Shown here in pieces: positions 40,839 to 49,962 of a stretch of 59,443 bases of DNA. This DNA is from a virus: IMG/VR virus record IMGVR_UViG_3300034019_001057, positions 1 through 59,443 of that record. One strand, 5' to 3'. Both the position numbers and the translations under genes were made by a program. Each line of letters starts with the position of its first letter. The stretch's first letter is position 1. A model generated the notes under the pieces. The model was not told where the DNA came from. It saw only the letters and a list, made by a program, of their open reading frames with translations, and made no database searches.

Positions 40839-42161
40839 ATGCCGTTATATAGAGACCCAAGTCGTAAAGATCTTCTTTATGAAGTTATCAAAGTACAGAC
40901 GTGTAGTGGAGAACCACTAGAAGTCACAACGGCAAGTGGTACAAGTACTTACGTGCAACCTGCAGGAATGGCAGGAGATGCATTTGGACGTACGCGTGTA
41001 TCAGCACCTCTGACCCTATTTGATTCAAGCCATCGTTATAACGACAATGGATTGTGGTCTACCTCCAGTGGTACTGGTGGCACGTTTGTATTTAATGAAA
41101 ACCAAGGCCTTGTTGATCTCAATGTAACCACTACATCTGGTTCTGAGATCATCAGAGAAACCAACAAGGTCTGTTCATATCAACCAGGGAAATCCCTGTT
41201 GTTTATGTCGACCTTTGTCATGAATGCGGCAAAGACAAACCTACGGCAACGGGTCGGTTACTATGGTGCTGCTAATGGCATGTACTTAGAAGTCAGTGGT
41301 ACCACAGAACCAGTCTTGGTTGAACGTAGTTCTGTAAGTGGAAGCCTTGCTGAAACACGAGTAGCACAAGCCAACTGGAACATTGACAAACTAGATGGCA
41401 ATGGACCTTCAGGTTTTACGCTTGATCTCACCAAAGCACAGATCCTTTGGTTTGATATTGAATGGCTTGGCCTTGGTACTGTACGTGCAGGGTTTGTCAT
41501 CAACGGTGCATTCATTCACTGCCATTCATTCCATCACGCCAATCTAATTACATCCACTTATATAACAACGGCATCTTTGCCGTTGCGTTATGAAATTACT
41601 AATGTAGGTACTACGGCAAGCAACAGTACTTTAAAGCAAGTTTGTTCGACAGTCCTATCAGAAGGCGGATATGAACTGCGTGGAGCACAGTCTGCCATTG
41701 GTACTCCGATTGCATCACCACGTGATTTAACAAGCGCTTCTACGGATTATCCTGTTATTTCTATTCGTCTCAAATCAACACGCCTTGATGCAATTGTTAT
41801 TTTGACCGCCCTATCAATCATGGGTATTACCAACAATGCAAACTACAACTGGAAAGTAATTGCCGGTGGTACAACCACAGCTGGATCATGGGCTACTACT
41901 GGAGCAGCTTCTTCGGTTGAATATAACATTACTGGCACTTCCTTTACCATAGGAACAGGACGTGTGTTAGCAAGTGGTTTTACCAACGGTTCTAACCAAG
42001 GTTCAACTGTTATTGATATCCTGAAAGAAGCTTTGTTTTCATTCCAGTTAGAGCGTAATGGTCTTACTAGTACTGCAATAGAATTGACCTTGGCATGCAG
42101 CAGTGCATCTGCTGGAGCTGATGTCCTTTCTTCCATGGACTGGGAAGAAATCTCGAGATGA
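40839..42161 (+). CDS. Phage structural or receptor-binding protein
   Basis: 440 residues. 'GDAFGRTRVSAPLTLFDSSH' at about 46-65 is the recurrent phage pattern DAFGRlRvS.P.tlFds, known from virion structural proteins of large phages. The rest is Ser/Thr/Gly-rich beta sequence with a 'WFDIEWLGLGTVRAGFVING' segment. Probably a capsid-decoration, neck or tail-associated adhesin. Not a homologue of T4 fibres as far as I can see. Confidence 0.65.
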   Translation: MPLYRDPSRKDLLYEVIKVQTCSGEPLEVTTASGTSTYVQPAGMAGDAFGRTRVSAPLTLFDSSHRYNDNGLWSTSSGTGGTFVFNENQGLVDLNVTTTSGSEIIRETNKVCSYQPGKSLLFMSTFVMNAAKTNLRQRVGYYGAANGMYLEVSGTTEPVLVERSSVSGSLAETRVAQANWNIDKLDGNGPSGFTLDLTKAQILWFDIEWLGLGTVRAGFVINGAFIHCHSFHHANLITSTYITTASLPLRYEITNVGTTASNSTLKQVCSTVLSEGGYELRGAQSAIGTPIASPRDLTSASTDYPVISIRLKSTRLDAIVILTALSIMGITNNANYNWKVIAGGTTTAGSWATTGAASSVEYNITGTSFTIGTGRVLASGFTNGSNQGSTVIDILKEALFSFQLERNGLTSTAIELTLACSSASAGADVLSSMDWEEISR

Positions 42162-42206: not shown

Positions 42207-42770
42207 ATGTATACCCCTGGTCCTCAAACGCAACAACCACCCCAGATGGGGGTAGAACCACTCAATTCTGGGGTAACTCCAGAGCCTCAAGCAAAGCCTA
42301 AAGCCCCTGGTAAAAGCAAGGGAAATGATGTGGGTGGTTTTATCCAGCAGTTGATTGGACTAATGGCTTATGTGCATCAGCTTCAGGTGCAGTCACACCT
42401 CATTCATTTCAACTACGAGGGTTCTAACTTCCTAGGTGTACACAAGTTCCTAGGCAAACAATACGAAGCTCATCAAGATCAATTTGATAAGTTAGGTGAG
42501 TTTATTCGTTCAATGGACTACTTATTACCTTCTTGCCACAATGGCTTAATGGAAGCAAGTCCTGAATTCAAACACTGCACCAGCTATAAACCAGGTGAAA
42601 TGCTGGGTGTTTACTATAAAAACCTTGAAGAGCTGGGCATGAAAACCAAAAAGCTAGAGCCCATTGCCGCCAAAGTTGGTGCCATTGATATTCAGAACTA
42701 CATGGCTGAGCTGTGTGGTGAAGCCTTCAAAGCTGCTTGGATGATTAAAGCTTCTCTTCGAAATGGGTAA
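42207..42770 (+). CDS. Dps-like ferritin-fold protein
   Basis: 187 residues. A Pro/Gln-rich 40-residue extension precedes a four-helix ferritin-like core. The Dps signature H-x(11)-H-x(14)-D-x3-E is present as H67, H79, D94 and E98, within 'HFNYEGSNFLGVH' and 'FDKLGEF'. The Asp normally found four residues after the second His is Gly83. Dps proteins oxidise and store iron and protect DNA. Iron activity here is uncertain. Its 3' end overlaps the convergent HNH gene by 26 bases. Confidence 0.7.
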   Translation: MYTPGPQTQQPPQMGVEPLNSGVTPEPQAKPKAPGKSKGNDVGGFIQQLIGLMAYVHQLQVQSHLIHFNYEGSNFLGVHKFLGKQYEAHQDQFDKLGEFIRSMDYLLPSCHNGLMEASPEFKHCTSYKPGEMLGVYYKNLEELGMKTKKLEPIAAKVGAIDIQNYMAELCGEAFKAAWMIKASLRNG

Positions 42771-43005
42771 GACGGTGGCAATTGCAGCAAAGCGGGATGC
42801 ACTTCTCGATTTCTGCTTCTACTCGCTTCCAGGAATAACCGTGGTTCACCATGGATGAGATGTTATTGTCCTTGTCACCTATGTGGTGGAACTCAAGGAC
42901 ACGATGATCATTCAGCCCACACTTCTTGCACTGCAAAGTCTTCTTGTACTCCAGAAGCTTCTGTCGATTCTTATCGATACGTTTTTTAGCAGTGCTCCAT
43001 GTCAC
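42745..43005 (-). CDS. HNH endonuclease (homing type)
   Basis: 86 residues. CxxC (residues 26-29, CKKC), 'LEFHH' and 'CIPLCCNCHRLTH' form a Cys-coordinated HNH fold with the catalytic His pair. Short length is typical of free-standing phage homing nucleases. It sits at the junction of convergent blocks beside tRNA genes. Confidence 0.8.
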   Translation of the reverse strand: MTWSTAKKRIDKNRQKLLEYKKTLQCKKCGLNDHRVLEFHHIGDKDNNISSMVNHGYSWKRVEAEIEKCIPLCCNCHRLTHFEEKL

Positions 43006-43486: not shown

Positions 43487-44158
43487 TTATACATCTTCAT
43501 TAGGTGTTCTCCAAAAGTACTCATCGTTTTCTCCAAGACGACCCCACTTGGGGGCGTGTTCTACATCAAAGTAGCGTGTTGATACCTTGAAGTCTGGTGT
43601 CTTGAGATTGTGATAACTCAATGATGGATCAACCATGCGACACCGATTGTTGGGATAAGCGCCAATTTGACCGTTGTCCAAAGCCACAATGTTATGGGAT
43701 TTGTGCTCATCAGGAAACTCCGAGAAGTAAAAATCAGGTTCGTTCCTATGAGGATGATAGTTGTCTACGGTAAATAAATATGTGCCCTTCATTACACCTG
43801 CGCTTCGTGTCAGGACTTCAAAACCCATGTTGAAGATTAAATTTTTTTCAACGACCGTAAGTCCATGGTCAAACCCATTCCAGAACTGAAGGTCGGTTAG
43901 CTCCAGGTCAGGTGTAGGTTCTTTGGGTTTATCTGGATAGTCTGAGTCCCATGCAAGAAATGCACTGATAGGAAGCTTGTCATATAGTGCTCCATACTCA
44001 GTTAAGTACGTTTCAAACTGTAATGCTCGACCAGTTAAAGATTTACAAGTTACCCAGTAACCTGGAGTGTACTCACCATGTCCATCTCTTAAGTCTCGAA
44101 GATATTCTCGGCGAACCCATACTTTAATTGGCGGAACGTTGGCAACAAGAGTTGTCAT
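43487..44158 (-). CDS. Conserved phage protein of unknown function
   Basis: 223 residues (VWVRREYLRDLRDGHGEYTP near the start). The composition is balanced, beta-rich with many Tyr, Phe, His and Pro. The start overlaps the endonuclease VII gene by 35 bases. I have a faint memory of similar sequences in phages but no family name. Confidence 0.65.
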   Translation of the reverse strand: MTTLVANVPPIKVWVRREYLRDLRDGHGEYTPGYWVTCKSLTGRALQFETYLTEYGALYDKLPISAFLAWDSDYPDKPKEPTPDLELTDLQFWNGFDHGLTVVEKNLIFNMGFEVLTRSAGVMKGTYLFTVDNYHPHRNEPDFYFSEFPDEHKSHNIVALDNGQIGAYPNNRCRMVDPSLSYHNLKTPDFKVSTRYFDVEHAPKWGRLGENDEYFWRTPNEDV

Positions 44159-44558
44159 GTGTTTTTAAATAAGTAGAGGCAAGAATTAACAACGCAGGGT
44201 CGTCATCAAAAAAACCGATCCCAGCGTTGCACTTAGCACATAATAGCCCTCTGACAACTCCAGTGGCATGGCAATGGTCTACAACTAAAGAATCATTCCT
44301 GCCTCTAGCTTTTGGATGCTGCTTGCAACAAGCACATAAACCTTGTTGACGTTTTTCCATTTCTTTATATTGTTGTTTTGATATTCCATATTTTTTTTCA
44401 ATATCTTTCCAACGTTTTATGTTAATGTAATGTACTTTGTTATTTTCTTTATAACAATCTTTGCACCAACAAGTATGTCCATCTGAATATCGTTTGTCTA
44501 TCCGAAAAAACTGTAAAGATAGCTCTTTGCGGCAACGGCTACAAGTTTTAGTACCCAC
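44124..44558 (-). CDS. Recombination endonuclease VII-like protein
   Basis: 144 residues from a GTG. Zinc ligands CxxC at 6-9 and 'CWCKDC', then 'CACCKQHP ... VVDHCHATG ... LLCAKCNAGIGF', the endonuclease VII core with the catalytic DHCH. Probably a free-standing homing nuclease. It begins within the foot of a terminator and ends inside the next gene's start. Paralogues at 46314 and 49480. Confidence 0.85.
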   Translation of the reverse strand: MGTKTCSRCRKELSLQFFRIDKRYSDGHTCWCKDCYKENNKVHYINIKRWKDIEKKYGISKQQYKEMEKRQQGLCACCKQHPKARGRNDSLVVDHCHATGVVRGLLCAKCNAGIGFFDDDPALLILASTYLKTHDNSCCQRSAN

Positions 44559-46010: not shown

Positions 46011-46321
46011 CACTTACTCTCTTTATATTTCTTGGCAGCAGCTTTAGCCTTACTACGTTTTTCATACTCATTTTTGGTCTGCCACTTTTCTTCGCCCCAT
46101 TTCTCCAAAGACTTTTGTTTCTCACCCTTGCCACCTTTATATCCACCACCTGCTTCTTTGTACTCACTTGCGACAAGCTGAGCCTTACGCGCCGAAATAA
46201 TTAGTTAGCCTTACGGCTACGACCATTCTCCCGGTTTACCCCCACGGCCTTCCCGCATAACTTTGTTTTTGATGCGCTCACGCAAGTCTGGTTTTGTGTA
46301 CTTGCTTTTGTCTTCAGCCAT
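46010..46321 (-). pseudogene. DUF5872-type N-terminal gene interrupted by a 24-base stop-containing insert (broken or recoded)
   Basis: The ATG at 46321, with GAGGAA upstream, gives 34 residues (KYTKPDLRERIKNKVMREGR ... KPGEWS) to the codon TCG at 46222-46220, then TAG. After 24 bases with three in-frame stops a second TCG at 46195-46193 is followed by ARKAQLVASEYKEAGGGYKG and on to TGA at 46012-46010. Joining the two at the TCG codons restores an expected 94-residue DUF5872-type protein (GEWS+ARKAQL). The downstream part remains intact and its stop overlaps the next start, suggesting it is still expressed. Without joining, an ATT start at 46198 would be needed. Confidence 0.65.
46196..46219 (-). 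other. 24-base insert with GTAA-loop hairpin, candidate bypass element
   Basis: Reading TAG-CCG-TAA-GGC-TAA-CTA-ATT on the minus strand. UAGCC-GUAA-GGCUA folds as a 5-bp GNRA hairpin that begins at the stop. It is bounded by TCG codons on both sides and contains a 9-base copy (CGTAAGGCT) of the coding sequence just after the second TCG. Confidence 0.55.
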
Positions 46322-46922
46322 AACTTCCTCGTTCTTTAAGATAAGTGACTGCGTTTGTCAATACATCTATATTATCACCAAATAAACCTAGGGCTCTATT
46401 GCACTCTTTGCACAATAAACCTCTGAACTCATTGGTTTGATGATTATGGTCCATGGCTAAAGATTGTTTATCCTTAGGAGGCTCTTGGCAAATTGCGCAT
46501 AAACCTTCCTGTGCCTCAAACACAATGTCGTATTGTTCTTTTGTTATCTTTCTGCGTTCGTATTTTTTGTGGTTGTGATGCAATAAATCTTGCCCTTGTT
46601 TTTTAACTTTTTGATAATGTTCTTTGTTATTATCTACCCATTTATTCCAGGTTATTCTGTTACAGGTTTTGCATGAAGAATGAAGATATAATTTCCCATC
46701 TTGTTTGCGTCTTCTAAAGCAATCCCAATCTAAATAATGAGCACATTTAGAACATTGTTTTTGGCCGTCTGCTCCATACAAAAGCCTAAATCGACGATTG
46801 ACTAAAGATCTGCAATCCTTGCATACGCTGTCTCTTTTTATATTGCCGGCTGAGTTGTACCCTTTGTTTGCAAAATTTTCATACGGCTTTCTAGTTCCGC
46901 ATTCCCGGCAAAGCTTTTGCAT
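46314..46922 (-). CDS. Recombination endonuclease VII-like protein
   Basis: 202 residues from the ATG at 46922 (MQKLCRECGTRKPYENFANK). It has three CxxC zinc pairs and the core 'CAICQEPP ... AMDHNHQTNEFRGLLCKECN'. The catalytic motif is DHNH. It lies between two copies of a DUF5872-type 5' gene part and overlaps the second by 8 bases. Likely a homing nuclease. Confidence 0.83.
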   Translation of the reverse strand: MQKLCRECGTRKPYENFANKGYNSAGNIKRDSVCKDCRSLVNRRFRLLYGADGQKQCSKCAHYLDWDCFRRRKQDGKLYLHSSCKTCNRITWNKWVDNNKEHYQKVKKQGQDLLHHNHKKYERRKITKEQYDIVFEAQEGLCAICQEPPKDKQSLAMDHNHQTNEFRGLLCKECNRALGLFGDNIDVLTNAVTYLKERGSYG

Positions 46923-46957
46923 TGGTTGGTTTGTGCTTTTCTTACTATAGCACAAAA

Positions 46958-47054
46958 TCACTGCCCAGGTTTTCCACCTTTAGATCCTGCCATCACGCGA
47001 TCTTTAATATGTTCGCGTAATTCAGGCTTAGTGTATTTATTTTTTTTCTGACAT
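46958..47054 (-). pseudogene. Truncated DUF5872-type 5' fragment with A8 frameshift
   Basis: From the ATG at 47054, MSE is followed by a run of eight A. In a shifted frame the sequence reads KYTKPELREHIKDRVMAGSK and GGKPGQ, then TGA. With seven A the frame would be continuous (31 residues). The missing part (WSARKAQL...) is found only after the endonuclease gene. It is a remnant, or an expressed short peptide by slippage. Confidence 0.6.
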
Positions 47055-48680: not shown

Positions 48681-49535
48681 ATGGTTGCTAGACTAAATAC
48701 GTCAGACCCTTGGATTAAAGCCAAGGACGAGCAACCAGAAGTCATGCGGTCGTTGAATAGGACCGCAGCCAGAATTTCTCTTAACGGTCGACGTCACTAT
48801 ACAACGCCGTTACCCACTGGTCCTGCGCCTTCCGTAACCACTATCATTGGCGAGACCGCTTCCGAAGCAAACAAACGGAAGCTCGAAATGTGGTCGAAAG
48901 CAAATCCAGGTGTCAAAGAGCAAGCGGCCGAAAGGGGTACTGCCATTCACTATGGCATGGAACAATACCTCAAGGGGAATAAAAATCCTGAAATTAAGGA
49001 GGAATATGCGGACTTTTGGGCGGGTATGCCGCCAATCCTGGATCAATTTGAGGAGATTCTATGGGCCGAATCGCCTGTTTTGGATAAATTTAACTTTACT
49101 ATTGGTTCTGATGACGTTGCTCGCGTATGGGGCTGTGACTCAGAAGGTCGTGCTTGGGCTGGTGCTCCTGATATTATTGCTGTTGCCAATAACAAATTGA
49201 CGCTTGCTGACCTGAAGACCAGTGTTAAACCCTATAGCCGCAAGTGGCCAAAAGATTTGGAGAAGGGGTCCCAGGAGTGGAGAGACCTGCTTGGTGGTCA
49301 CATGAAATTCAAGAAGACTTGTAAACAACTCGCCGCATACGACATTGCTATTAGCCAGACCCTTGGGCTAAAGGTTCAACAAGCTGCAATACTAGTTTCA
49401 ACCCCTACTCGCACCCAAATTTTTAAAATTTCACGTCGTTACCTTGATATGCTACATGAAGACTGGTACAAAATTGTAGATGAGTACTATAAACAAATTG
49501 AAAACTGCAACGTTTACGATTCTGATCTTATTTGA
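48681..49535 (+). CDS. PD-(D/E)XK exonuclease (RecB/Cas4-like)
   Basis: 284 residues. 'RGTAIH' with H90, 'GAPDIIAV' with D164, 'LADLKTS' with D177 and K179, and 'QLAAYDIA' at 216-223 give the full G-x-x-x-H / G-x-PD / D-x-K / Q-x-x-Y motif set. It probably processes DNA ends in recombination or replication. Its 3' end overlaps the following endonuclease VII frame by 56 bases. Confidence 0.85.
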   Translation: MVARLNTSDPWIKAKDEQPEVMRSLNRTAARISLNGRRHYTTPLPTGPAPSVTTIIGETASEANKRKLEMWSKANPGVKEQAAERGTAIHYGMEQYLKGNKNPEIKEEYADFWAGMPPILDQFEEILWAESPVLDKFNFTIGSDDVARVWGCDSEGRAWAGAPDIIAVANNKLTLADLKTSVKPYSRKWPKDLEKGSQEWRDLLGGHMKFKKTCKQLAAYDIAISQTLGLKVQQAAILVSTPTRTQIFKISRRYLDMLHEDWYKIVDEYYKQIENCNVYDSDLI

Positions 49536-49962
49536 AAATGGAGAAAAAATTTGTACTCTTTGTAAAGAGCTAAAAACTTTAGCGTGCTTTAGCAAAGCAG
49601 GTCGAAAAGATTCGCTTAGAAGTGATTGCAAAAAATGTAATGCTAAAAAATATAAACAATGGAAAGAAAAAAACAGGACCGCATATTTACGTGGGGCAAC
49701 CAATGCAGGATTAAAAATAAAATATGGAATCACTCTTGAAGAATATGAGCAAATGCTAAAAAATCAAAACCAGTGTTGTAAAATTTGCAAAAGTAAAAAA
49801 CCTGGAAGAAAAGGTGTTAAAAGATTTGCAGTAGATCACTGTCATAAAACCAATAAAGTAAGAGGATTGCTGTGCATGTCCTGTAATACAGCAATAGAAT
49901 TATTAAATGAAAACCCGGTTCTTTTTGACGCTGCAAAACAGTATTTAGAAGAGTATTCTTGA
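49480..49962 (+). CDS. Recombination endonuclease VII-like protein
   Basis: 160 residues. 'KICTLCKELKTLACFS' and 'CKKCNAKK' are zinc pairs; core 'CCKICKSK ... AVDHCHKTNKVRGLLCMSCN' includes DHCH. The ATG at 49480 lies inside the exonuclease gene, giving an atypical N-terminus of about 19 residues. A homing nuclease that landed at the 3' end of the exonuclease gene is the simplest view. AT-richer than its neighbours. Confidence 0.83.
   Translation: MSTINKLKTATFTILILFENGEKICTLCKELKTLACFSKAGRKDSLRSDCKKCNAKKYKQWKEKNRTAYLRGATNAGLKIKYGITLEEYEQMLKNQNQCCKICKSKKPGRKGVKRFAVDHCHKTNKVRGLLCMSCNTAIELLNENPVLFDAAKQYLEEYS

Follow-up and report, generated by a model that had tools for sequence, protein, structure and literature searches.

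The gene examined here lies in a 59,443-nucleotide stretch of viral DNA (IMG/VR record IMGVR_UViG_3300034019_001057, referred to as the window in its full length) and is a functional-looking phage Dps that belongs to the core of its lineage and carries a non-canonical ferroxidase centre (Table 1). An initial annotation, made from the letters alone, had proposed a phage-encoded Dps-like ferritin, and this proposal was borne out at the level of domain, family and fold. The protein matched the Pfam domain PF00210 Ferritin (1.7e-11; 44.7 bits against a curated cut-off of 24.5) and PHROG 3636 (3.5e-35), and its top sequence match in the PDB was the Dps of Campylobacter jejuni, 3kwo (3.6e-11, or 6.5e-14 with the family profile). 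The AlphaFold2 (AF2) monomer model, obtained with a 26-row alignment as input, is predicted with confidence in the core, where 136 residues reach pLDDT >=90. Its four-helix bundle is ferritin-like, a short BC helix lying between helices B and C; the helices at residues 42-69, 75-102, 111-115 (the short one), 129-156 and 160-186 reproduce the Dps layout. The PDB matches listed by Foldseek were all Dps or Dps-type proteins, the best of them Dps dodecamers with Z up to 21, and the absence of a PDB family from these fold-match lists was not counted as its exclusion. With the MrgA protein of Bacillus subtilis (2chp), the predicted fold gave a Z of 21.0 and an rmsd of 1.6 Å over 145 residues. The Dps assignment had been staked beforehand on this fold prediction, and the predicted monomer is indeed a four-helix ferritin for which Dps proteins are the best matches. 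Furthermore, the gene is, to judge from its dN/dS ratios (medians: core 0.088, tail 0.27), under purifying selection. These low ratios, the Pfam and PHROG scores and the presence of relatives on at least 177 IMG/VR contigs argue against a chance ORF.

Table 1. Features of the Dps gene and its flanking genes in the window, with the evidence for each.
Feature	Position	Strand	Evidence
Dps-type mini-ferritin gene, 187 aa, ATG start	42207..42770	+	ORF, Pfam PF00210, PHROG 3636, AF2 fold, PDB fold matches
N-terminal tail, residues 1-40, Pro/Gln-rich, predicted disordered	42207..42326	+	pLDDT <50 at residues 1-37
Basic patch KPKAPGKSK, residues 30-38	42294..42320	+	3-5 K/R in almost every freshwater member; marine members lack the patch
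His67, ferroxidase ligand, partner-subunit site A (E. coli Dps H51 position)	42405..42407	+	invariant, 76/76; ungapped alignment to solved Dps
His79, ferroxidase ligand, site B (E. coli Dps H63 position)	42441..42443	+	invariant, 76/76
Gly83, replaces the usual site-B Asp/Glu (E. coli Dps position 67)	42453..42455	+	never acidic in 76
Asp94, ferroxidase ligand, site A	42486..42488	+	invariant, 76/76
Glu98, bridging ferroxidase ligand	42498..42500	+	invariant, 76/76
Upstream virion structural protein, 440 aa, lectin/glucanase-like fold at residues 47-277	40839..42161	+	PHROG 1645, AF2, fold match
Convergent HNH-like ORF, 86 aa, overlaps the Dps 3' end by 26 nt	42745..43005	-	ORF call

Phage Dps proteins as such are already known. 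They have been described in gut phages (PMC8008677), a ferritin has been reported from freshwater phages (PMC6802176), and the copies of Lactobacillus phages have been reported as oxidative-stress protection (PMC6669764). The Dps of Lactobacillus, Campylobacter and Grimontviridae phages share PHROG 3636 and the four iron ligands with the window protein; however, they are only 15-21% identical to it and lack a Pro-rich tail, and those of their gene neighbours that were examined are mostly replication, nucleotide or unassigned genes. The cellular Dps 3kwo is closer in sequence (27% identity over 142 columns), and differs in having a Glu four residues after the second His (the +4 position) and, in the solved chain, no long tail in the alignment. 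The closest isolate is Synechococcus phage S-EIV1 (KJ410740; host Synechococcus), which is also the only annotated phage with a close relative of the gene. Its Dps, already annotated as a DNA-binding ferritin-like protein (AHV82153.1), is an ortholog, about 80% identical, with the same ligands and the same type of tail, but it reads Gly-Glu at positions 83-84 where the window protein reads Gly-Lys, and it has no virion gene before it and a different gene after it.

Among 28 contigs chosen by their DNA polymerase, 24 carry the Dps gene, and the remaining four end before its expected place, about 11 kb on from the polymerase, so that they are no evidence against core status. Diverged marine relatives (43-55% identical) also sit on S-EIV1-like contigs. 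The distribution thus indicates that Dps is a core gene of the S-EIV1-like cyanophages, near-universal in the lineage, and the window virus is presumably itself a phage of a cyanobacterium. In the tree, which included few cellular sequences, a long stem of 4.26 changes per column (support 100/100) leads to the family above an unresolved backbone, and the tree thus points to no particular donor. A host-derived origin was considered and rejected, since the only yield of the one genome scan was a pair of contigs from a mis-binned MAG, both of them S-EIV1-like phage. PAZU01000030 and PAZU01000034 are S-EIV1-like phage contigs filed in a Euryarchaeota MAG, apparently by mis-binning.

The initial annotation had also read an intact H-x11-H-x14-D-x3-E signature with a glycine for the Asp expected after the second His, and both readings were confirmed. 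In the DNA and its translation the motif H67-x11-H79-x14-D94-x3-E98 is complete, with CAT encoding H67, CAC H79 and GGC G83. The four ligands align in register with those of solved Dps, so that the inter-subunit spacing of two His, Asp and Glu is present, and they are unchanged in all 76 distinct proteins of the lineage, down to 43% identity with the window protein. Such invariance argues for retained metal chemistry. Position 83 is Lys in 47 of these proteins, Gly in 27 and Arg in two, and acidic in none; the adjacent position 84 is Asp in 55 and Lys in the window protein. The canonical five-residue ferroxidase centre, which requires an Asp or Glu at the fourth position past the second His, was absent from all 76. 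Since no member has it, the window protein included, activity could be slow or restricted to one iron. Altogether, the comparison points to a Dps in the S-EIV1 lineage in which site A would be intact and site B weakened.

The changed ligand is no rarity: the whole lineage has it, it exists in known Dps and it is frequent in other phage Dps. The Dps4 of Nostoc punctiforme (NpDps4, 5hjh) and the DpsA of Halobacterium salinarum (HsDpsA, 1moj) have the Dps fold and, like the window protein, a non-acid at the position of the site-B carboxylate, their overall sequence identity to the phage protein being low. NpDps4, with Asn67, still binds two Fe and uses O2 to oxidise Fe2+ (PMC6675082), and the motif HLFLGE of HsDpsA places a Gly at the position equivalent to 83; a non-acid at this position is thus compatible with activity. 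In the alignment of solved Dps, CAIP has a Gln at the +4 position, which is mostly Glu or Asp in the cellular proteins (3kwo, PA0962, Dlp-1, TpF1, MrgA and those of B. brevis and M. smegmatis). A His-type ferroxidase centre is defined by a His replacing the first helix-B Asp, at position 78 (PMC6675082). This centre, found in NpDps4 and TeDpsA, was rejected for the phage family: where Dps4 has His78, the phage protein has Asp94, kept in 76 of 76. Besides, a second type of phage Dps, recognized by YHWNVxG, occurs on at least 586 other IMG/VR contigs. In the best 80 of these matches, a sample picked by similarity that includes near-copies, the +4 residue is Gly in 67 and acidic in four, and among 20 representatives of the sample the acidic and non-acidic states are intermixed in the tree. 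Loss of the site-B carboxylate is thus common in phage Dps.

With regard to the N terminus, the view that a Pro-rich extension replaces the Lys-rich DNA-binding tail of typical Dps did not hold, because a conserved basic patch, KPKxPxKSK, is present. Residues 30-38 of the window protein contain four Lys, conserved as K/R in freshwater relatives, whose tails are mostly 38-45 residues long, start in most cases with MYTPGP and end in KPKxPxKSK, which contributes about four basic residues. In marine relatives the tail has about 30 residues, is acidic, unrelated to the freshwater one and devoid of the patch (net charge -4 to -6 versus 0 to +3 in freshwater tails), which indicates that DNA binding is not a lineage-wide function of the tail. 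In the freshwater clade the patch may contribute weak contacts with DNA or protein, the function of the core being, on this comparison, independent of it. The tail of the window protein is 90-95% identical to those of some relatives that match its middle segment mostly at just 63-69%, whereas its middle segment is 86-95% identical to that of other relatives whose tails reach 36-66%. This difference in nearest relatives between tail and core suggests that the gene is a mosaic produced by recombination inside it.

The genomic position of the gene had been described as last in a rightward block and next to a structural gene, and ORF order and the PHROG match of the upstream gene agree with both statements. 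Dps is the final plus-strand gene before a leftward stretch that opens with an HNH-like ORF. The protein encoded upstream matches PHROG 1645, head and packaging (4e-147), its family is labelled as virion structural protein in many T4-like cyanophages, and its predicted lectin/glucanase-like domain gave Z up to 18.5; on the model, surface decoration is a likelier role for it than that of a core component binding DNA. This virion gene lies directly upstream of Dps in 67 of the 85 non-marine loci with room for it, typically at 26-45 nt, and is separated from it by one or two ORFs in six further non-marine loci. A search of the regions ahead of the virion gene established no conserved motif, as these regions align too poorly. 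On the other side, most freshwater loci have a member of the family of the convergent HNH-like ORF (cluster 1) downstream of Dps. HNH-like ORFs are dense around Dps in the window (42745-43005, 44124-44558, 46314-46961 and 49480-49962), and the first overlaps the Dps 3' end in most relatives. The relatives also have a variable slot downstream of Dps, absent from the window, whose gene often overlaps the Dps stop by 4 or 1 nt; the genes that fill it are unrelated to one another, and those tested had no PHROG match. One of them is S-EIV1 AHV82152 (L059 17153-18619), labelled sulfate adenylyltransferase, a label for which there is no Pfam or PHROG support.

The neighbourhood bears on the possibility that the protein is associated with the virion, packaged in the particle or docked on it through the Pro-rich tail, where it would protect the packaged DNA or be delivered at infection. 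The short distance to the lectin-fold virion gene in freshwater loci and the strongly conserved MYTPGP start speak for it, as do the Dps-fold domains that Foldseek finds in uncultured-phage proteins bearing the name prohead protease. However, the virion-gene neighbour is absent in the five marine loci with room and in S-EIV1, so that the linkage is a feature of one clade and weak evidence for a virion role; the marine tails are short, acidic and unrelated, and a search of all window ORFs found the tail motif in no other. The prohead-protease matches (BFVD A0A6J7WPK9, A0A6J7XDU5 and A0A6J7WIS1, from uncultured Caudovirales), possibly fusions of Dps with a capsid protease, rest on protein names, and the best 80 YHWNVxG-type matches contained no such fusion, all being stand-alone proteins of up to 162 aa. 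No report on proteomics of this Dps was found in a literature search. Overall we regard virion association as unlikely. The more specific picture of a site-B-depleted mini-ferritin of the S-EIV1 lineage, anchored in or on the virion by its MYTPGP...KPKxPxKSK tail so that the genome would be accompanied by an antioxidant cage, is unlikely too, and a little more so. The suggestion of the initial annotation that the protein might be a virion part using the ferritin fold only was not substantiated, given the ligands invariant in 76 of 76 proteins and the missing virion-gene link in marine relatives and S-EIV1.

Two other readings concern what the cage does inside the cell. It might gather iron from degraded photosystems for host metalloenzymes or new virions rather than serve in defence, which would fit the retained iron site and Dps fold; but none of the genes beside Dps was recognised as an iron-release, uptake or Fe-S gene, and we give this reading a slim chance. 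The one nearby label that suggests iron is that of the minus-strand gene at 43487-44158, which has ferredoxin as its best PHROG label (4e-96) and only two Cys, which makes an Fe-S ferredoxin unlikely. An even slimmer chance is left for a protein that only compacts DNA, with fold and basic tail binding DNA and a vestigial iron chemistry. The KPKxPxKSK patch of the freshwater clade and the loss of the canonical site-B acid are in line with it, yet the four ligands are invariant, the patch is absent from marine relatives and the core is under stronger selection than the tail.

Family knowledge together with ligand invariance makes iron detoxification the best-supported role, and we consider it probable that the protein acts as an intracellular, non-canonical Dps ferroxidase limiting Fenton damage during infection of a cyanobacterium. 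Produced in the infected cell, the phage Dps would assemble as a 12-mer and bind Fe2+ at each dimer interface, in a site A formed by H67 of one subunit and D94 and E98 of the other, next to a site B weakened by the missing carboxylate at position 83. Fe2+ would then be oxidised with H2O2 or O2 and the Fe3+ stored, so that Fenton damage to phage DNA and proteins would be limited in the iron-rich, illuminated host cell.

If the Dps-fold proteins named prohead protease were real fusions, delivery of Dps with the capsid would be a more widespread theme. Separate groups of phage Dps have repeatedly lost the site-B carboxylate, a testable pattern of how viruses may tune these proteins, for example between O2 and H2O2 as oxidant. 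An iron-detoxifying cage would be a fixed part of the gene set in a widespread lineage of cyanophages and not an occasional acquisition, and its fixation suggests that the infection of picocyanobacteria is probably under constant constraint from iron and oxidative stress.
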